Shown: positions 513-11,681 of the stretch, piece by piece
Numbering within the stretch: position 1 is the first letter of the stretch
How the letters are laid out: every line of letters starts with the position of its first letter
Assembly (NCBI RefSeq): GCF_027925145.1
Contig: NZ_AP027130.1
Coordinates: 1,364,001 to 1,428,000, forward strand
Source of the DNA: Thermodesulfomicrobium sp. WS
Lineage (GTDB): Bacteria > Desulfobacterota > Desulfovibrionia > Desulfovibrionales > Desulfomicrobiaceae
Length of the DNA: 64,000 nucleotides
Direction of reading: 5' to 3'
The notes under the pieces: model-generated
The model's database searches: none
What the model was told of the DNA's origin: nothing
The model's input: the letters and a program-made list of their open reading frames with translations, nothing else
Position numbers and translations under genes: made by a program

Positions 513-1775
513 CTAGCCGCATATTGTGGAAACGCGTTCCACGATACGGACGTATGTATTATTGATGATTCCACGAATCAGAACAAGACTTCCATCGTCA
601 CTGAATATTGGGTCCCAACACTCCGAAAATTCTTTGGAGTATGGCTTTCCATCCACGACGATGGTGTATTTTTTGGAACGTTCTACTTTTGCCGCAACGT
701 GCGCGCCTTCGGGAGAAAATACCGGCTTCCAGCACATGTCGTACATTTCTGGCCACGCTTGGTCATCGACCATGACGGTCCAGCGTTCGTTTTCTTTGCC
801 CAGCGCGGCGATTCTGCGTCCATCGTGGCTTACGGTGAGATCGAAAACCATGTCTCCAAAAGTGGTGCGCCATGCCTGTCCGTCCATAGCCACGGTCCAG
901 CGGCCGTATTCGGGACATACCAAGGCGATCAGATGATCTCCTTTGGGGGTGTAGCGTTGGTGCCAAACCTGGAAGAATTGTGGCTTCCAGATCACCTGGC
1001 CATCCACGGCCATGCCCCATTTTCCTCCCAAGCGCACCGGCGCAGCGATGGCGTTGGTCTTCGGGTGAAAGCAGGGTTCCCACACTTGGGAAAAGGTTTC
1101 GTTCCATGTGGAGCCGTTGCAGGCAATGGTGTAGTCGAAAAGATTGAGTCGTACTTGGGCGGCGACGTGGGTGCCACTGGGGCTGATAACCGGCGTCCAG
1201 ACGTTAACGAAATTGCGCTCCCAGGCTTCTCCATCCACGGCGACGGAAAAGACCCCTTGCTTGAATTTGAAGATCTCCGCCTGTCCGAGGGGTTCGGTCT
1301 GGACTGCAGCCGCCGTGTGCGCTCCGTCCGCGCTGAGCACGAAGTTATTGGCATTGGCAAAGAGGTTGGGCCAGATCTCTCCGTCTTTGATCATTCCATA
1401 CTGCATGGAGTCACTGACACAGCATGCGATGACGGATCCATCTTCCGAAAAGAGGGTGTTCCACACAAAGCCATAGCCTTCTTCCCACGCCTCTCCATCT
1501 ACGGCAAGTTTCCAATCACCGTCGTTGACCAGGGCGGTAAGCCGCCCGTCCGGACTATAGCGGAGGTACCATACGCGGTCGAACTGGTTTTCCCAGAGCG
1601 CATCATTCACTTGCACCGTGTACGTCTCGTCCGCTGTTCGCACCACGGCGGCCACCTGTTCTCCATCTGGGCTTGCGTGGCTCTCTTCACGCCATGCGAT
1701 CTCGTCATTGTTCGTGCCGAGATCCACAACGGTTTTCGAACCAACACTCCAATCCCACTGTGTTTTTGGTGCCAT
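513..1775 (-). CDS. tmcD: TmcD-like tryptophan-rich repeat protein
   Basis: The 420-residue protein is built from about eight repeats of roughly 45 residues, each with a pattern like VDG.AW...F..VW.P.FSPDG..VAA.V, and contains 22 tryptophans. This is a beta-propeller-like repeat. It has no signal peptide or membrane helix, so it is probably cytoplasmic. It matches the Trp-rich TmcD subunit described for the Tmc transmembrane redox complex of Desulfovibrio, whose function is not established. The start is fixed by AAGGAGAGGGGT just upstream. In D. vulgaris tmcD is the last gene of tmcABCD; here it comes first, directly before the cytochrome b gene. Confidence 0.75.
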   Translation of the reverse strand: MAPKTQWDWSVGSKTVVDLGTNNDEIAWREESHASPDGEQVAAVVRTADETYTVQVNDALWENQFDRVWYLRYSPDGRLTALVNDGDWKLAVDGEAWEEGYGFVWNTLFSEDGSVIACCVSDSMQYGMIKDGEIWPNLFANANNFVLSADGAHTAAAVQTEPLGQAEIFKFKQGVFSVAVDGEAWERNFVNVWTPVISPSGTHVAAQVRLNLFDYTIACNGSTWNETFSQVWEPCFHPKTNAIAAPVRLGGKWGMAVDGQVIWKPQFFQVWHQRYTPKGDHLIALVCPEYGRWTVAMDGQAWRTTFGDMVFDLTVSHDGRRIAALGKENERWTVMVDDQAWPEMYDMCWKPVFSPEGAHVAAKVERSKKYTIVVDGKPYSKEFSECWDPIFSDDGSLVLIRGIINNTYVRIVERVSTICG

Positions 1776-2319
1776 ACCCCTCTCCTTGTGTTAAAAAACA
1801 CATCGTTGTGTGAAGCCGTGTTCCGATTTTCATCACGTTTAAGTCGGAAAATCGGAATGTTTTGAAGTGCGGATAGCGTACAATTTTGACCATGTAAATA
1901 TCTTTTCAGAATCAGACTGCTTTACTCGATAAAAAAGAGTAGTGTTCTAGTCGTCTTTTAAAGAGTTTTATTCAGATTGTTTGTGTCGGTTTTTTTGTGC
2001 TTTTTGTGTCATGCAGAGTGCGTCGGTGGCGGGAAAGTGGGGGCAGGTATTGAGAGTGAGGCGGGATGTAAAAATATTTTTTAAGAAAATTCGATGGTTG
2101 TTTCTCTGGGGTCGTTTTGCTTGTGAAGGAATGGATTTGCCCTTGACGGTTTCGGGTGGATTCTATACCTCCGGGGTCGGAAAAAATCATACCTGCAGGA
2201 TCTAAATACGTATCTGTTGGGTATGTTTTTGTTTTTTGAGGCACGAGGCGGGCCTTGGGGAGTCAGGGCCAAGGTTGCCGGAATGTTCCGGGGAGGATTT
2301 TCAACAAAGGATTGTGCAC
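1776..2319. promoter_or_regulatory. AT-rich divergent promoter region between tmcD and hmcA
   Basis: This 544-base stretch has no credible gene and is much richer in A and T than its surroundings. It must hold the promoters of both redox operons. Visible elements are a 10-base inverted repeat (1821-1857), an AAAAATATTTTT palindrome (2070-2081), a GTCGGAAAAAATC element (2176-2188) like the right half of the inverted repeat, and a weak promoter-like pair before hmcA (TTGACG at 2143, TATACC at 2164, spacing only 15). The exact promoters cannot be settled by eye. Confidence 0.6.
1821..1857. promoter_or_regulatory. Perfect 10-base inverted repeat upstream of tmcD, possible operator
   Basis: TTCCGATTTT at 1821-1830 is repeated inverted as AAAATCGGAA at 1848-1857, with 17 bases between the arms. 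It lies 46 bases upstream of the tmcD start. No run of T follows it in the tmcD direction, so an operator is more likely than a terminator. A similar half-site (GTCGGAAAA plus ATC) recurs at 2176 on the hmcA side, which would fit one regulator acting on both operons. The regulator is unknown; Rrf1 and Rrf2 are candidates by position only. Confidence 0.4.
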
Positions 2320-3861
2320 ATGGAGAAGGGAAGACCAATGCGATGGGTCGGCATCCTGTGCCTGAGTCTGGGGGTTGCAGGATTTGGACTGAACGCCCTG
2401 GGGGGCAAGCAGGAGGGCAAACCCGAGCCGGGAGGGGCAGGGCTTATTCTCATTGATACCCTGGCCGCGTCCGGCAAGCTTTCGTACCCAGTGGTCCGTT
2501 TCGACCACGACAAACACACCAAGGCGGTGGAGAACAAGTGCGATTCTTGTCACACCGTGGCAGAGGGCAACAAGGTCACTCCGTTGTTCAAGCGGCAGGC
2601 AAGCGAGGACCCGGGCCGCATCAAAGCGATCTATCATGATAACTGCATTGGGTGTCATCAGCGGACTGCCCAGGCGGACAAGAAGAGCGGTCCTCAAAGC
2701 GGGGAGTGTCGTTCGTGTCATGCCGGTCCGCGGGATTCGGTGCGAGAGGTGATCCCTTTCGACAAGTCGCTGCACTACCGCCATGCTTCCTCCAAGATGG
2801 TGCAGCCGGCTCCCGGCCAGAAGGAAAACTGCTCCAAGTGCCACACCCAGGACACGCCGGAAAAGCGCAATCTCATTTTTGCCAAGAACAAAGAAGAAGC
2901 GCACACCAAGTGTGTTTCGTGCCACCTGGAGATTGCCTCGACCAAGCAGCCCACCGGTCCGGTGGAGTGCGCCGGCTGTCATGATGCCGCCAAGCGTTCC
3001 ACGTACAAAGTGATTGCAGACGTGCCGCGTCTGGAAGCCGGGCAGACGGATGCCATGCTGCTGGTGCCCCCGGCTCCCAAGTCGGCGGCCAAGGATGCCC
3101 CTCGGTCGGTGGTGCCGTTTGACCACAAGGCCCATGAAGCCAAAGTGAACCGTTGCTCGGCCTGCCATCACGATGCCCGCTCCAAGGGGGTACCTGCCTG
3201 CTCGCAATGCCATACGCCTGGCGGGAAGGAAGAGGGCGCCTTCATTACGATCGAGCAAGCCATGCATCGGCCCATGGCCATGGAGAGTTGCATCGGCTGT
3301 CACAATGCCAAAAAGGCCGATCCACAATGTGCGGGATGTCATGAATTTTTGGGCCGTACCACCAAGAGCCAGGAAGGGGCGTGTGCCAAGTGTCATGTGC
3401 AGATGCCGCTGCCTGAGGGCGTGGAGCAGAACAAGGCGCTTCGCAATTCTCTGGCGCAGACCATTCTGGAAGGGAAACCCAAGAAAGATGCCGCGCTGCG
3501 TCTGGATGAGATTCCTGAGGTGGTGGAGATCGGCGTCCTGTCCAAAGAGTACCAGCCGAGCAAGTTCCCCCACCGCAAGGTGGTGAAGAAGATTGCTGCA
3601 GGCATGGAAAACAGCACACTCGCTGCCTACTTCCACAGCTCGCCCAATGCCATGTGTGCGGGTTGCCACCATAACGCTCCGGCTTCGGCCAACCCTCCGG
3701 CGTGTGCCACCTGCCATAGCAAGGAGTTCCAGGAGGTCGATGGTCGTAAGCCTTCGCTCAAGACCGCCTACCATCAGCAGTGCATGGGATGCCACAAGCA
3801 CATGGGCATCCAGAAGCCAGCGGATACGGCCTGCGTGGAATGTCATGCCAAGAAAGAGTAA
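2320..3861 (+). CDS. hmcA: HmcA, high-molecular-weight multihaem cytochrome c
   Basis: Periplasmic multihaem cytochrome that receives electrons from hydrogenase/cytochrome c3 and feeds the Hmc membrane complex. The N-terminus has a signal-peptide-like hydrophobic segment after MRWVG. I count 15 CXXCH haem motifs, many followed by extra His ligands of c3 type. The D. vulgaris protein has 16; the one missing here lies between the motifs CSKCH and CVSCH, in the fourth-to-sixth haem region. Conserved segments such as FDKSLHYRH and [12 protein letters not shown] confirm HmcA. The start is ATG 2320; ATG 2338, behind GGAGAAGGG, is equally possible and gives a tighter signal peptide. First gene of the hmc operon. 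Confidence 0.93.
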
Positions 3862-3890
3862 CCCCTAAGGGCGATAGGAGCTGTATCACC

Positions 3891-4946
3891 ATGAAACGGA
3901 GAACATTCATCGGTATTCTGGCGGGCGCCGGGGCCTCTTTGGCCACGGGAACTGCTGGAGCCGCTGGAAACCATCATTTTACGGGGTATCCCGATAGTTA
4001 TGGCGTTCTTTTCGACAGCACCAAATGTATCGGATGCCGCAAGTGCGAGGCTGCGTGCAACGCCGTCAATGAGCTTCCGAAACCGGAGTTGCCTTTTGAT
4101 GACTTGTCGGTTCTGGAGAAGCGTCGGCGCACGCATCATGATACCTTCACCGTTGTCAATAAATATGAATACAACGGAAAGCCTGTGTTTCGAAAGATCC
4201 AGTGCAACCATTGTCAAGAACCGGCGTGTGCATCTGCATGCTTTGTCGGAGCATTCAAGAAGGAGCCTACAGGGGCGGTAAGCTACGATGCTTCGCGCTG
4301 CGTGGGCTGCCGCTATTGCATGATCGCCTGTCCTTTTGAAATTCCCACGTACGAGTACCATGACCCCATAACCCCGCGGGTGCGCAAATGCACCATGTGT
4401 CAGCCGCGGATTTTGGAAGGGAAGCTTCCGGGGTGTGTGGAAGCCTGCCCCAAGGGCGCGTTGGTGTTTGGTCACCGCGATGAACTCTTGCAGATCGCCC
4501 GGGAACGCATCCGCAAACATCCCGAACTCTATGTGAATCATATCTATGGTGAGCAGGAGATGGGCGGCACCAATTGGCTGTACATCTCCGGGGTGCCTTT
4601 CGAGATCCTTGGCATGCGTGAGGACCTGGGCATCACCCCTGCGCCGCAGCTGACCACCGGTGCTTTGTCGGTGGTACCGGCGGTGGTGGGCTTGTGGCCC
4701 ATGTTCCTCACCGGCGCCTACGCCATCACCAAACGCAAGGAAAAGATTGCGGCCGAGGAGCGGGCCCATGCCGTGCAGAAGGCCGTGGCCGAGGCTGAGG
4801 CCGAGGCGGCCAAGAAATTGGCCGCCGCCCTGGAGAAGGCCGAGCGGGAAAAACAGGCGGCCATTGACCGTGAAGTAAAGAAAGCACTCAAAGAGGCGGA
4901 AGAAGCCCGAAAGAAGGCGGAAGCTGCTTCTGAAGGTGAGGAGTAA
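3891..4946 (+). CDS. hmcB: HmcB, four-cluster iron-sulfur subunit of the Hmc complex
   Basis: A 351-residue protein that carries electrons from HmcA into the membrane. Four [4Fe-4S] cysteine groups are visible: [11 protein letters not shown] near residue 46, [13 protein letters not shown] near 106, [11 protein letters not shown] near 138, and CTMC with the later CVEAC near 168-188. The N-terminus (KRRTFIG then a hydrophobic stretch) resembles a twin-arginine export signal, consistent with a periplasmic position. A hydrophobic anchor follows near residue 260, and the last 65 residues are a charged Ala/Glu/Lys coiled coil. The start at 3891 is preceded by GGGCGATAGGAG. It lies 29 bases after hmcA. 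Confidence 0.92.
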
Positions 4947-4956
4947 GGAGGGCCAT

Positions 4957-6126
4957 ATGGCGCATGTTGCAACACCAAGCAAAAAATTTTGGACCCCGGC
5001 CAATATCATTACGGCGATCATTCTGGTCATTGGCCTTGTGCTCACGGTGAAACGGTTCTCCATGGGCATTGGCGCGGTGTCCAACCTGTCGGATGACAAC
5101 CCGTGGGGGATTTGGATCGGCTTTGACCTCTTGTGCGGCGTGGCCTTGGCCGCTGGCGGCTATACCACCACGGCAGCGGTGTATCTCTTTGGCATGAAGA
5201 AATATCATTCCGCCGTGCGGCCAGCCATCACCACCGCGTTCTTGGGCTATGCCTTTGTGGTTTTCGCCTTGCTCTACGATCTGGGCCGCTACTACCGGCT
5301 CCCCTATCCTTTGACCATTTATCCTGGGCCCACCTCCTTTCTCTTTGAAGTGGGCTTGTGTGTGGCCTTGTATTTGACGGTACTGGCCATCGAATTCTCT
5401 CCCTTCCTGTGGGAAGTGCTGGGCTGGGCCAAGATCCGCCATCTGGTGCACAAGCTGACCTTGGCGCTCACCATCTTCGGTGTCATTCTCTCCACGTTGC
5501 ACCAGTCTTCCTTGGGCGGCTTGTATCTCATTGCCCCGTCCAAGCTGCACCCACTGTGGTATTCCATCTATCTGCCGCTGTTCTTCTTCCTTTCCAGTAT
5601 CCCGGCCGGACTTTCTATGGTGATTTTGGAAGGAACGCTTTCCCACAAATATCTCAACCACAAGATGGACGAAGAGCATCACCATGGATTTTCTCCGGTG
5701 GTTTTGGGCTTCTCCAAGGCGGCATCTGTGGTACTCTTCGCCTACTTCTGCATGAAGTGGATTGGCGTGGCCATGGACAATAATTGGAGCCATCTCGGCA
5801 CAGGATGGGGGCTGTGGTTCCTGGTGGAAGTTTTGGGGTTTGTCCTGCTTCCCTGCATCCTCTACGCTGTGGCGGCCCGGGAGAAGAATGAACGCGTCGC
5901 GTTCTATGCCTCCATCATGACCGTTGCTGGCATTATTTTGAACCGCCTCAATGTCTCCATCATTGCCTTCAATTGGCGACTGCCTGCAGAGGCGCGGTAT
6001 TTTCCTTCTCTTGAAGAGTTCCTTATTACCGTGTTCATTGTGACCCTGGAGATCACGGTGCTGCGTATCTGCCTCAACAAGCTTCCCATCTTGCATCAGC
6101 ATCCCCAGTTCCGGGATGCCCACTAG
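4957..6126 (+). CDS. hmcC: HmcC, NrfD-like integral membrane subunit
   Basis: A 389-residue polytopic membrane protein of the NrfD/PsrC family, with roughly ten helices spread along the whole length. In Hmc-type complexes this subunit docks HmcB and probably interacts with menaquinone. Family features include the DDNPWGIWIGFD segment after the first helix and the later TLHQSSLGGLYLIAP segment. The start is ATG 4957 behind AAGGAGGG; the longer reading from 4936 would overlap hmcB and lacks a ribosome site. It follows hmcB by 10 bases and precedes hmcD by 10 bases. Confidence 0.93.
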   Translation: MAHVATPSKKFWTPANIITAIILVIGLVLTVKRFSMGIGAVSNLSDDNPWGIWIGFDLLCGVALAAGGYTTTAAVYLFGMKKYHSAVRPAITTAFLGYAFVVFALLYDLGRYYRLPYPLTIYPGPTSFLFEVGLCVALYLTVLAIEFSPFLWEVLGWAKIRHLVHKLTLALTIFGVILSTLHQSSLGGLYLIAPSKLHPLWYSIYLPLFFFLSSIPAGLSMVILEGTLSHKYLNHKMDEEHHHGFSPVVLGFSKAASVVLFAYFCMKWIGVAMDNNWSHLGTGWGLWFLVEVLGFVLLPCILYAVAAREKNERVAFYASIMTVAGIILNRLNVSIIAFNWRLPAEARYFPSLEEFLITVFIVTLEITVLRICLNKLPILHQHPQFRDAH

Positions 6127-6136
6127 GAGGTTCGCG

Positions 6137-6286
6137 ATGGAGTTCATGACTTATCACGACTTCATGTTCTGGACCAAAGGGATGGCCTATGTGGGCATGG
6201 GACTTGCCTTGGTCGGGTTCATCGTGTTCTGGAATTTTCTGACCAGCCGCGAGGATGACCGCTTCGCGGACAAGGAAGAAGAATAG
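6137..6286 (+). CDS. hmcD: HmcD, small single-helix membrane subunit
   Basis: A 49-residue protein starting MEFMTYHDFMFW, with one hydrophobic helix (about residues 15-37) and a charged tail DDRFADKEEE. Its size, membrane helix and place between hmcC and hmcE match HmcD of D. vulgaris, a tiny subunit of unknown role. The ribosome site is AGGAGG six bases before the ATG. It is too short to be found by ordinary length cut-offs. Confidence 0.88.
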   Translation: MEFMTYHDFMFWTKGMAYVGMGLALVGFIVFWNFLTSREDDRFADKEEE

Positions 6287-7001: not shown

Positions 7002-8384
7002 ATGCCCGAAGGAAAACTTTGTAATAAGAAGCCCGTATCCACCCGCGAAGAGCTCGATGCCTTGCTGGCGGATTCCAACGGGCGGCAATACTATGCGGAA
7101 ATGGAGCAGTTGGATGTGGACTCCGATGCCTTGTGGGCCACGATCCAAAAGACCATGAAGTCCCGCCTCAAGACTTGGCTAGAAATTTGCGCCCATTGTG
7201 GTTTGTGCGCGGACAGTTGCTTTTTGTATACGGTCAATGAAAAGGATCCCACCCAGGTTCCGTCGTATAAGATCCAGTCCACCCTGGGAGAAATCGTCCG
7301 GCGCAAGGGCAAGGTGTCCAACGAGTTTATGCGCATGTGCATGGACACGGCGTGGTCCAAGTGTACCTGCTGCAACCGTTGTGGCACCTACTGCCCTTAC
7401 GGCATCGATATGGGCGTCATGTTCAGCTACTTGCGTGGGCTTTTGCACTCTCAGGGTTTTGTGCCCTGGGAGCTCAAGATCGGCTCGGGCATGCATCGCC
7501 TCTTCCGCGCCCAGATGGACGTGACCGTGGAAGACTTTGTGGATACGTGCCAGTGGATGGTGGAAGAGGCCCAGGAGGAATGGCCGTGCCTGGAGATCCC
7601 CATCGATAAAGAAGACGCGGACATCGTCTATATGATCAATGCCCGCGAGGCCAAGCACTATCCGGAAGACATCGTGGAGGCTGCCATTCTCTTCCATATC
7701 GCTGGTGAGAACTGGACCATGCCCAGCGTGGGCTGGGAGATGACCAGCCTGGCCATGTTTGCGGGGGACTGGGAAGCCTGCAAGATGCAGGTGGAGACCA
7801 TCTACAGCGCCATGGAGCGGCTGCGTCCCAAACGCATGGTGGCCACTGAATGTGGGCATGCCTATCGCGCCACGGTTATTGAAGGCCCGTATTGGGCAGG
7901 CCGTCCGGATGGCAAGCCACCGGTGGAATGTATTCATTACGTAGAGTGGGTGGCCGAGGCCTTGGAAACCGGAAAGCTCAAGATCGATCCTACGAAGAAG
8001 ATCAAAGAGCCGGTCACGGTCCAGGATTCGTGCAACTATGTGCGTAATGCGGGGCTTCGTGAGTGTACGCGCATCATTATGAAGCACATCGCCGAAGACT
8101 TCCGTGAGATGGCTCCGTGTAAGGAGCACAACTATTGCTGTGGCGGCGGTGGTGGCTTCAATGGTATCGGTCGGTACCGCAAGCAACGCAATATCGCCCT
8201 CAAGATGAAGCGGGAACAGATCTTGGCTACAGGCGCAAAACTTGTTGTGGCCCCATGCCACAACTGTTGGGACGCCATCCGGGATCTGGAGGAAGAGTAC
8301 CAGATTGGCATCAAGTGGTCCTTCCTCAAGCCCTTGCTCATCAAGATGGTGGAAGTGCCCCCGCACTTGCGGCCCGAGGAGTAA
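7002..8384 (+). CDS. hmcF: HmcF, HdrD-like iron-sulfur protein of the Hmc complex
   Basis: A 460-residue cytoplasmic subunit related to HdrD-type heterodisulfide reductase proteins. Two [4Fe-4S] motifs, [11 protein letters not shown] near residue 61 and [11 protein letters not shown] near 115, are followed by Cys-rich CCG-type regions ([28 protein letters not shown], and CHNCWD near the end) that could hold a noncubane cluster. It is thought to deliver electrons to, or accept them from, cytoplasmic partners. The start at 7002 has GCGAGGAATGG upstream. It is the last structural gene of hmc; 48 bases separate it from the usp gene. Confidence 0.92.
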
Positions 8385-8432: not shown

Positions 8433-9350
8433 ATGTTCAAGAAGATTTTGTTCGCCACATCTGGATCTCCCTGCTGTGACGCTGCGGCTCGGGTCGCCTT
8501 CGATATGGCGGTGCGCTACGACGCAGAGCTTTTCGTGTTCCACGTACTGGGCGTCCCCAGCCGCGGGTTCAGCCACATCGTTGTGGACGTGCGTACCGGG
8601 GAAAAAGTAGAGCTGGACGCCGATTATATCGCTTGGGTTCAGGATGAGCTCAAGAATACCTATGACCGGCAGCTGCGCTCCGGGGCCCGGTGTTCCATCG
8701 AGGCCGTGGTGGGGATCCCGCACCGGGAGATCCTGCGCAAGGCTCGCCAGGAAGACGTGGATATCATTGTCATGGGTGCGAGTACCACCGGGTGCGAGGG
8801 GGATTCTGACGCCTATCCCAAGCACTTCGCCGGCTCCACCCTGCAGCGGGTGGCCAAGGCCTCCAAGGCGCCGGTCTTGGTGGTGAACCGCCCCGCCGCG
8901 TCGTTCTGGGGCGGGTTCACCAATATCGTCTTTGGGGCGGATTTCTCGCGCGCTTCGGAGTACGCCTTCCAGTTTGCGCTGAAGACAGCTCGGGAACTGG
9001 GCGCTAAGCTGCACGTGTTTCATGCCGTCGATATCGAATCCCAGCATGGGCTTATGTCGCAGCAGGAGATCGATGACCGTATGCTGGAGGCCCGGGATCG
9101 CATCCGTCGGAAATACTTGCTCCAAGCCAAGGGATATCCCCATATCAACGCGGATGTGTGGGAAGGTATTCCCTATGTGGAAATCGTGAAGTATGCGCGA
9201 GAGCGCCAGGCGGATCTCATCGTCATGGCGCACCATTCTCGGGAGACGTCCGACGCTTCGTTGGGCCGCACCCTTGAGCAGGTGCTGTTGCGGGCATCGT
9301 GTCCGGTGGTTTCGGTCAACCGTCCGGACAAAGTGGTGGACAACGAATAA
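8433..9350 (+). CDS. Tandem universal stress protein (two UspA domains)
   Basis: A 305-residue cytoplasmic protein with two UspA repeats of about 150 residues. The first runs from KKILFATSG to PVLVVNRP and contains the nucleotide-loop-like segment IIVMGAST; the second runs from NIVFGADFS to CPVVSVNRP with LIVMAHHSRE. Usp proteins bind ATP or act as stress and energy sensors; no catalytic role can be read here. It sits between hmcF and rrf1, only 12 bases before rrf1, so it belongs to the hmc operon, unlike the D. vulgaris arrangement. Confidence 0.88.
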   Translation: MFKKILFATSGSPCCDAAARVAFDMAVRYDAELFVFHVLGVPSRGFSHIVVDVRTGEKVELDADYIAWVQDELKNTYDRQLRSGARCSIEAVVGIPHREILRKARQEDVDIIVMGASTTGCEGDSDAYPKHFAGSTLQRVAKASKAPVLVVNRPAASFWGGFTNIVFGADFSRASEYAFQFALKTARELGAKLHVFHAVDIESQHGLMSQQEIDDRMLEARDRIRRKYLLQAKGYPHINADVWEGIPYVEIVKYARERQADLIVMAHHSRETSDASLGRTLEQVLLRASCPVVSVNRPDKVVDNE

Positions 9351-9362
9351 AGGGGGAACACC

Positions 9363-9719
9363 ATGGCCAAGAAGATCTTGATCATCGACGACGATCCTAA
9401 CATCGTCACCTATCTGGAAGACATCTTCCAGGACAATGGCTACGCCACCTGCAAGGCCACGGACGGGGCCGACGCCATGGATGTGGTGCGCTCGGAGCGT
9501 CCGGATCTCATTACCTTGGACCTGGAAATGCCCAAGGAGTGGGGGCCACGGTTTTATCGGCAGCTGAGCCAGGACGAAGAGTTCGGTGGTATCCCGGTCA
9601 TTGTGATCAGTGGGCTTGCCGGCAACAAGTATGCCATCCCCAAGGCAGTTGCCTCGTTTACCAAGCCCTTTGACCGTGAGGAACTCCTCAAGGTGGTCAA
9701 GGAAACATTGGGCGAGTGA
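9363..9719 (+). CDS. rrf1: Rrf1-like single-domain response regulator
   Basis: A 119-residue CheY-like receiver with no output domain. The acidic pair (IIDDD near residue 9), the phospho-acceptor Asp in ITLDLEMP (near 53), the Ser of VIVISG and the Lys in SFTKPF are all present, so it should be phosphorylatable. In D. vulgaris rrf1 follows hmcF and, with rrf2, controls hmc expression. Here a kinase gene comes directly after it and is a likely partner. The ribosome site is AAGGGGG. Confidence 0.82.
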   Translation: MAKKILIIDDDPNIVTYLEDIFQDNGYATCKATDGADAMDVVRSERPDLITLDLEMPKEWGPRFYRQLSQDEEFGGIPVIVISGLAGNKYAIPKAVASFTKPFDREELLKVVKETLGE

Positions 9720-9730
9720 TGGACTTCCAG

Positions 9731-9763
9731 GCCCCCGCCGTTTGGGGCGGGGGCTTCCTTTTT
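9731..9763 (+). terminator. Rho-independent terminator after rrf1
   Basis: GCCCCCGCC (9731-9739) pairs with GGCGGGGGC (9746-9754) around a short loop, followed by TTCCTTTTT. It separates hmcA-rrf1 from the kinase and rrf2, so those genes are expressed by read-through or from their own promoter. Confidence 0.85.
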
Positions 9764-9774
9764 GGGGCGTGGTT

Positions 9775-11250
9775 ATGATTGTTGCGACTGAACCCATTGT
9801 CGTGGCCACCGCAGACGTGGAGCATGGGCAGGTGCTCGCTCGGGTGTTGGCGGAGCATGGCTTCCGGCCGGTCTTGTGCCGGTGTGCGGAAGTCGCCCGT
9901 ACCTTGCATGAGGTACGGCCTCGGTTGTTGATCCTCGGCCATTGCCAGAACGATGGCGAGGCCTTGGTGCGCGATATTGTGCAGCAATTTCCTCGCATAC
10001 GGGTCATTGCCCTGCTGGAGTCCGGAGAAAGCGATCGTGGGCTGGATCTTTTGGAGGCCGGCGCTTCCGATATCTTATTCAAGCCAGTGGGCGAGCGGGC
10101 CCTGTCCATTGCGGTGAAGCGGGCTCTGGATATCTTAGATCTGCAGGAACAATGCGACATCGTGCGGGAGAAGAATAAGATCTTGCGCATGAGTCAGCAG
10201 ATGTGCCGCCAACTTTTTGATGAAGTACCGTGCTATATTTCGGTGCAGAACAAAGATTGGCGCATTGTTCGTGCCAACCGGCATTTCAAAGAGGACTTTG
10301 GCGATTGCTTGGGCGAGCATTGCTACGAAATTTACAAACACCGCACGCATCCCTGCCCCAATTGTCCAGTGGAAGCAACCTTTGCCGATGGGATGATGCA
10401 CCAAACGGAGGAGGTGGTGACGACCCGCAGCGGCCAGCAGCGCATCGTGCTCACCATGACCGCGCCCATTCGCGATGAAAATGGGAATATCGTGGAAGTC
10501 ATGGAGCTTTCCACGGACATTTCCCAGATTCGGGAGCTGCAAAGCCGGCTGACCTCTTTGGGCCTTTTCATCGGCTCTATTTCCCATGGCGTGCGCGGCA
10601 TGCTCACGGCCCTTGATGGCGGGATGTACCGCTTGGAAAAAGGGATCGAGACCGGGGATATGGACCGCATCCGCAGCGGCGTGGAGCTCGTCAAACTCAT
10701 GGTGGCGCGCATTCGCAATTCCGTCTTGGAAATGCTCTATTATTCCAAAGAGCGGGAACTGAACATCCAAAACATCGATGTTCGCTCCTTTGCCGAAAGT
10801 GTCGCGAATTTTGTGGAGCCCAAAGCGGAAAAACACGGTGTCGCCTTTCAGAGGGATTTTTCCCAGGATTTGGGACAGGTATCTTTGGATCCAGAAGTCA
10901 TCTCCTCTGGCCTCGTCAACATCCTCGAAAACGCCGTGGATGCCTGCATCGAGGACGAAGCCAAACCCCACCATGAGGTCGTGTTCGCCGTGTCGGCCAC
11001 GGCGCACGAAGTCTGCTTTGTTGTGCGGGACAATGGGATAGGCATGGACCGCCAGACACAAGAGAAGATGTTTTCCTTGTTTTTTTCTTCCAAGGGGAGC
11101 CGGGGTACCGGTCTTGGGCTGTATATCGCCAATGACGTTGTCCACCAGCATGGCGGCCGCATTGAAGTGCAGTCCACCCTGGGTGAAGGAACGGAGTTTC
11201 GGGTATTTCTCCCTCGGCAGCCCCGCTCGCAGTCGGCACCGGCATCATGA
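9775..11250 (+). CDS. Histidine kinase with degenerate receiver and PAS domain
   Basis: A 491-residue cytoplasmic kinase without membrane helices. The first 120 residues resemble a receiver, but the phospho-acceptor position reads LLILGHCQNDG with no Asp, so it is a pseudo-receiver. A PAS domain (about 130-260) follows with a Cys motif HPCPNCP. The kinase core has the phospho-acceptor His in SISHGVRG, the N box NILENAVDAC, DNGIGM and GTGLGL. It is placed between rrf1 and rrf2 and probably acts on Rrf1. The start is ATG 9775, just after the terminator; the ribosome site is weak (GGGGCGTGG). The upstream extension to 9610 would overlap rrf1 and has no kinase-like sequence. Confidence 0.85.
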   Translation: MIVATEPIVVATADVEHGQVLARVLAEHGFRPVLCRCAEVARTLHEVRPRLLILGHCQNDGEALVRDIVQQFPRIRVIALLESGESDRGLDLLEAGASDILFKPVGERALSIAVKRALDILDLQEQCDIVREKNKILRMSQQMCRQLFDEVPCYISVQNKDWRIVRANRHFKEDFGDCLGEHCYEIYKHRTHPCPNCPVEATFADGMMHQTEEVVTTRSGQQRIVLTMTAPIRDENGNIVEVMELSTDISQIRELQSRLTSLGLFIGSISHGVRGMLTALDGGMYRLEKGIETGDMDRIRSGVELVKLMVARIRNSVLEMLYYSKERELNIQNIDVRSFAESVANFVEPKAEKHGVAFQRDFSQDLGQVSLDPEVISSGLVNILENAVDACIEDEAKPHHEVVFAVSATAHEVCFVVRDNGIGMDRQTQEKMFSLFFSSKGSRGTGLGLYIANDVVHQHGGRIEVQSTLGEGTEFRVFLPRQPRSQSAPAS

Positions 11251-11264
11251 ATGGAGATGGACGC

Positions 11265-11681
11265 ATGCGTTTGACCACTCGGAGTCGCTACGGCACCCGG
11301 CTGCTTCTCGACATCGCCTTACATCAGGATGCAGGGTGGGTGAGCACGTCCGACATTGCCGCGCGGCAAAATATTTCTCAGAAATATTTGGAAAAACTCG
11401 TGACTGGTCTGCGGCAGAGTGGGATTATTCAAAGTAAGCGTGGGCCGTTTGGAGGACATAAGCTGGCCAAATCCGCCGACGAAATCACCGTGGGGGATGT
11501 GGTGCGCGCCCTGGAAGAGCGGCTCCTGATCTCCAATTGCTCCGATGGCGAGCGTCTGTGCGGCGAGTGTACCTTGGCCGGGGAATGCGTCACCCAGTTT
11601 GTGTGGATCGAGGCGTCCAACGTTTTGATGCAAACCCTTGATTCCTATCGGTTGAGCGATCTCATCCGCCGCAAAGGCTAG
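11265..11681 (+). CDS. rrf2: Rrf2 family transcriptional regulator
   Basis: A 138-residue winged-helix regulator of the Rrf2/IscR family. It begins MRLTTRSRYG, has the DNA-binding region with ISQKYLEKLV and GPFGGHKLA, and near residue 92 has four Cys (NC, LC, EC, EC within 17 residues), which suggests an iron-sulfur cluster as in IscR. In D. vulgaris rrf2 is the founding member and represses hmc. The start at 11265 has GGAGATGG upstream; an ATG at 11247 overlapping the kinase stop (ATGA) is an alternative that adds six residues. Its stop codon shares a CTAG with the stop of the convergent GTPase gene. Confidence 0.87.
   Translation: MRLTTRSRYGTRLLLDIALHQDAGWVSTSDIAARQNISQKYLEKLVTGLRQSGIIQSKRGPFGGHKLAKSADEITVGDVVRALEERLLISNCSDGERLCGECTLAGECVTQFVWIEASNVLMQTLDSYRLSDLIRRKG

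Follow-up and report, generated by a model that had tools for sequence, protein, structure and literature searches.

We know of no answer to how sulfate reducers set which way, and in what amount, electrons pass through their Hmc and Tmc electron-transfer complexes, and to our knowledge Rrf1, a receiver protein encoded beside hmc, has no known kinase. Among the described loci, that of D. vulgaris Hildenborough (Keon 1997, via PMC10924467) has, after hmc, genes for a small receiver and for an Rrf2 protein, and the figure legend of PMC10924467 gives rrf1, rrf2 and DVU_0528 there, naming neither a Usp nor a kinase. A Usp and a response regulator (RR) beside hmc are named in the legend for S. carbinolicus (PMC10924467). 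The adjacency of Hmc, Usp, RR and kinase genes is already published for Desulfococcus multivorans (PMC5109826), the available text of which gives Usp, three RRs called DNA-binding and four histidine kinases. Here we describe the regulatory block downstream of hmcF in a stretch of 64 000 nucleotides from Thermodesulfomicrobium sp. WS (NZ_AP027130.1, positions 1,364,001 to 1,428,000), hereafter the window. The available parts of PMC3333781, PMC8063818 and PMC4046663 hold nothing further on this block.

An earlier note, made from the sequence alone, had read a tandem Usp, a receiver protein, a PAS kinase and Rrf2 downstream of hmcF. Gene calls and Pfam matches bear this out, and the block adjoining hmc is confirmed as described, with every gene on the + strand. 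The final gene of the hmc complex, hmcF (7002..8384; NCBIfam NF045711, 938 bits, cut-off 750), is followed by a protein of 305 amino acids with two Usp stretches (8433..9350; PF00582, 7.6e-48), a single-domain RR of 118 amino acids that the note had called rrf1 (9363..9719; PF00072, 3.3e-22), a histidine-kinase-like protein of 491 amino acids (9775..11250) and an Rrf2 family repressor (11247..11681; PF02082, 7e-39). Unlike the D. vulgaris-type arrangement, in which rrf1 stands straight after hmcF, a Usp gene intervenes here; unlike D. multivorans, the window has one RR and one kinase, and the RR lacks an output domain.

The survey of the locus in relatives that the note had suggested was run, and hmcF-Usp-RR-kinase recurs in Desulfobacterales as well as in five families of the window's own order; since it recurs across families, the gene order is more than chance. 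A close survey covered 19 genomes, three of the window's genus and 16 of the next genus, and Usp-RR-kinase is present in 16. In 15 of these the cassette is preceded by hmcF or its end (the G001 contig breaks off inside Usp), and in 15 Rrf2 comes next after the kinase (the G014 contig ends in the kinase). One genome (G008) carries the cassette at a tmc-like locus and has Rrf2 alone after hmcF. The exact order hmcF-Usp-RR-kinase-Rrf2 is also found in G206, from another family, and in Desulfotignum and Desulfamplus metagenome-assembled genomes (Desulfobacterales). Cassettes at tmc loci have the order Usp-RR-RR-kinase (G121, G170, Halodesulfovibrio L198 and Bilophila L199), with a homologous Usp, RRs of 58-61% identity and kinases of 48-52% identity; their kinase is long (receiver-PAS-PAS) with the receiver Asp intact, unlike that of the window. 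Our leading explanation, to which we would give a little short of an even chance, sees the block as an ancient two-component module, of redox type, belonging to the Hmc and Tmc electron-transfer complexes. It leans on the recurrent order, on RR and kinase being present or absent together, and on four invariant PAS cysteines, intact RR phosphorylation residues, a degenerate receiver and an odd H-box.

PAS cysteines, H-box and pseudo-receiver of the kinase

From Pfam, an alignment of 52 kinases and an AlphaFold2 model, the kinase is read as a pseudo-receiver, a four-Cys PAS domain, a DHp domain with the H-box HGVRG and a HATPase domain (PAS_4, 1.1e-11; HATPase_c, PF02518, 8.4e-23). The 52 rows were picked by similarity to the window kinase, the L118 kinase being left out as it is cut by a contig end. 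The model has a mean predicted local distance difference test score (pLDDT) of 81.9 and a predicted template modelling score (pTM) of 0.40, and Foldseek searches with it returned ordinary sensor kinases, HK853 and WalK included.

The PAS domain (residues 148-252; 10216..10530) contains Cys153, Cys183, Cys194 and Cys197, all four of which are invariant (52/52). The earlier note had proposed a Cys-based redox input at the motif HPCPNCP; the motif is real (Cys194 and Cys197) and the redox input plausible, although this CxxC is half of the site. Four conserved PAS cysteines are also a feature of NreB, the precedent for a cytoplasmic PAS kinase with a four-Cys [4Fe-4S] cluster (PMC4601167), whereas a cluster in the window kinase is at most predicted. 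Four invariant cytoplasmic thiols would fit a metal or iron-sulphur (Fe-S) site, making the window kinase a testable candidate for a redox sensor of the Hmc complex. The H-box family and cysteine spacing of NreB are presumably unlike those of the window kinase. A sequence search of the PDB with the PAS domain alone gave a best E value of 0.18. Two tandem four-Cys PAS domains of the same type occur in a Pirellulaceae protein whose gene adjoins a response regulator (L208, 8518-9993).

The H-box (H271-G-V-R-G275; 10585..10599) aligns with H-E-L-R-T of T. maritima HK853 and departs from the HisKA pattern H-E/D-x-x-T/N. His271 is invariant, and Gly272 (H+1) and Gly275 (H+4) are each present in 51 of the 52 rows. 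Pfam HisKA did not match the window kinase at an E value of 0.1 and matched one of seven family members (E 0.025). The GHKL-type ATP site appears intact, with a HATPase_c match and N382, N386, D419, G421 and G423 invariant in all 52. Judged from these residues, either a different base would be in use or the protein would be a phosphotransfer scaffold. We take the HxxKG pattern to resemble Hpt and CheA P1 domains, a point in favour of the scaffold. The H-box thus raises the question of whether a conserved kinase family works without a residue that is essential in HisKA kinases. It is conceivable, if doubtful, that this kinase exemplifies a DHp class so far undescribed, in which a conserved HG[VI][KR]G H-box functions with no acid beside the His and is joined to a four-Cys (Fe-S or Zn) PAS sensor, the whole being dedicated to Hmc/Tmc electron balance through an output-less receiver. 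In the literature searched we found no description of an HGxKG H-box or of a four-Cys PAS kinase at hmc; within it, the invariant four-Cys PAS domain, the HGxKG box and the account of how the pseudo-receiver arose seem to be new.

At the N-terminus (residues 1-120; 9775..10134) the model has a receiver-like strand-helix order, and a sub-threshold Response_reg match (5.6e-5) covers residues 58-114. The note's observation that the phospho-acceptor Asp has been lost holds, since Gly55 (codon 9937-9939) stands at the alignment position where homologues have the Asp of VLTDIKMP. With Gly in place of Asp and the acidic pair lost, the domain agrees with the description of pseudo-receivers in the available text of PMC12632262. 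The Asp and the acidic pair are kept in 29/29 long kinases (receiver-PAS-PAS), while among the 23 short rows the Asp site is Gly in 15 (the window kinase plus 14 relatives from its family), Asn in 3 and Asp in 3, with no comparable position in 2. As the Asp is intact in all of the long homologues, its loss is, on the alignment, derived and took place among the single-PAS forms. In the kinase tree the short hmc kinases form two groups with support, one of 10 rows and one of 4, implying one or two loss events; before this and the RR tree were calculated, near-identical and long-branch rows were removed.

A proposed two-component module for Hmc and Tmc and its alternatives

The earlier note had offered the kinase as the missing partner of Rrf1. 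The kinase and the RR are likely partners, being adjacent and present in the same 27 of 61 genomes (both are missing in the other 34), although the identity of this RR with Rrf1 is doubtful, as set out below. The thresholds for co-occurrence (kinase E <= 1e-70, RR E <= 1e-25) were picked after the lists had been inspected. The window genome encodes a single RR of the family and a single close kinase, and the RR aligns with D9, D10, D52 and K100 all present and no further domain found besides PF00072.

In the module that we favour, the four PAS cysteines would hold an Fe-S cluster or metal, or serve as thiols, and so report the cytoplasmic redox state, which would alter how much phosphate the kinase adds to, or removes from, the RR. 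Because it has no DNA-binding domain, the RR would act through partner binding, with Rrf2, Usp or the complex itself as candidates. Rrf2, which is IscR-like, would be the DNA-binding arm on hmc and perhaps on the divergent tmc operon. The pseudo-receiver would be what is left of an input receiver that most of the homologues examined keep intact, and would take phosphate no more. The block would in this way provide a specific partner and, in the four cysteines, a specific sensor site, both testable with purified proteins.

Several points weigh against the module. At the present locus its mechanism rests on sequence, with phosphotransfer, cofactor and transcription all predicted. Shared presence supports a partnership, yet joint loss of a linked block yields the same pattern. 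A mirror-tree test on 22 loci was not specific for co-evolution of RR and kinase, and partial correlations given HmcF over the 22 loci are 0.35 for RR-kinase, 0.44 for RR-HmcE and 0.69 for kinase-HmcE. The RR is split from the kinase by a terminator-like hairpin followed by a T run (9729..9756, + strand; 11 pairs, -26.7 kcal/mol), so that the kinase and Rrf2 may be produced at lower levels than Usp and the RR; the hairpin is kept, with changes in the stem sequence, in 3/3 genomes of the genus, and a stricter scan of the sister genus gave weak candidates only, at 2 loci. Two genomes (G011 and G013) have hmc with neither RR nor kinase at the thresholds used, so hmc can do without the block. Conversely G245 (99% complete) has a window-type RR and a short kinase (L160, 7420-9390), yet the fetched 18 kb lacks Usp, hmc and tmc genes and HmcF is not matched in the genome at 1e-150; this speaks against a strict link to hmc. 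Lastly, the H-box lacks the acidic residue that HisKA kinase activity needs, according to the available text of PMC3510030, and this makes phosphotransfer from kinase to RR less certain.

This last point is the basis of the best surviving alternative, which we consider unlikely, namely that, instead of a normal kinase, the protein is a scaffold that transfers phosphate or acts as a sink for it. With no Glu/Asp at H+1 it would autophosphorylate poorly, its His would take phosphate from the RR or pass it on, and ATP binding would be a conformational input. The near-invariant glycines at H+1 and H+4 and the scarcity of HisKA matches speak for a scaffold, as does CrdS, a HisKA protein in which, in the available text, E372G abolishes kinase activity and Asn375 is needed for phosphatase activity (PMC3510030). 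The conserved ATP-site residues, however, would be needless for a pure phosphotransferase. Some other DHp families, moreover, autophosphorylate without an acid at H+1.

Slightly less probable again is that the module controls a target other than hmc and tmc, such as the response to starvation or stationary phase, and merely travels with these operons. Besides the genomes in which hmc and the RR-kinase pair occur apart, more distant RR-kinase pairs (L114, L132 and L133) also lack hmc or tmc matches. In D. alaskensis G20, Dde_3711-3713, 3715 and 3717-3719 form one fitness cluster among starved pooled mutants in the available text of PMC5193443; by name this set, a putative counterpart of the window block, includes Usp, RR, kinases and Rrf2. 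Against an unrelated target, RR and kinase adjoin Hmc or Tmc genes in most of the cassette loci fetched, in two bacterial orders.

Identity of the response regulator and age of the gene order

The window RR belongs to the DVU0259 family, scoring 200 bits with NF045717 (curated cut-off 160). Scores of 190-206 are reached by six RRs from hmc-Usp and tmc cassettes, whereas four rrf1 proteins linked directly to hmcF score 130-140, under the cut-off; these D. vulgaris-like comparisons are loci of the same order in relatives, with the rrf1 of D. vulgaris itself outside the set. Because the window RR passes the cut-off and the four do not, the label rrf1 would be positional and orthology with Rrf1 doubtful. 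In the RR tree (60 rows, unrooted) the window falls in a clade of 32 rows (96/92) that excludes five g20/g24 rrf1 rows and takes in two g23 rrf1 rows and three Desulfobacterales-type tmc rows, and an approximately unbiased (AU) test of a narrower grouping gave no rejection (p 0.09). We grade orthology as doubtful in view of a short alignment, an unrooted tree and this AU result. A scan of named genomes with an Rrf1-type alignment gave generic receiver matches, D. vulgaris not being among the matches listed; 80 loci were kept, 17 inspected for context and 9 taken into the RR tree. A literature search on DVU0258/DVU0259 found no paper.

Across 297 genomes of the order, HmcF scores above its cut-off in 172 and the RR family in 128, so that many hmc genomes are without the RR. 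Among the matches listed, HmcF positions are given for 136 genomes and an RR position for 104 of these; the RR lies 985-2068 nucleotides downstream of hmcF on the same strand in 65 of the 104 and elsewhere in 39. The median gap of 1063 nucleotides is Usp-sized, and fetched loci of this kind have a Usp in the gap. Twenty loci were fetched for genomes without a listed RR near hmcF, and eight, from three genera, have the D. vulgaris-like order hmcF-rrf1-rrf2, while three have Usp-RR-kinase. The earlier note had spoken of Usp and a kinase inserted into, and expanding, a D. vulgaris-like hmcF-rrf1-rrf2 locus, which is very improbable: the absence of a named kinase in the D. vulgaris legend (PMC10924467) agrees with it, but hmcF-Usp-RR-kinase is widespread and the direct order seen in eight of the fetched loci, with rrf1 of five direct-order loci outside the window's RR clade and of two inside. 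A local insertion thus probably did not take place, the direction of change being argued from distribution because the trees are unrooted.

Rrf2, tmc and neighbouring genes

Translation of Rrf2 probably begins at Met7 (11265 rather than 11247), since all 55 of the relatives aligned have Met7 and in 54 of them nothing aligns with Met1. Its cysteines are conserved to differing degrees (Cys98 52/55, Cys105 42/55, Cys108 40/55 and Cys114 55/55). On the other side of hmc, tmcD (513-1775, - strand; NF045725, 623.9 bits) leads a run of tmcC-, tmcB- and tmcA-like genes that is divergent from hmc and lies upstream of hmcA, so that the block borders both complexes and may be a single block for both hmc and tmc. 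In the sister genus (three loci inspected), tmc and hmc share one direction, with tmc leading into hmc.

The region between tmcD and hmcA (1776-2322) includes a stretch conserved in two species of the genus, TTGACGG...ATACC...GGGTCGGAAAAAATCAT, and contains words resembling Rrf2 half-sites. HmcA, HmcC, HmcE and HmcF are above their NCBIfam cut-offs, HmcB being outside that run, and the likely hmcD, assigned by position, is an open reading frame of 56 amino acids between hmcC and hmcE (6116-6286, + strand). At two other loci (L112 of G032, 2495-4507; L124 of G023, 658-4099) the region upstream of hmcA carries another, divergent set of Usp, kinase and RR genes, with kinases whose H-box reads HDIKN and which contain the motif CPxCPV.

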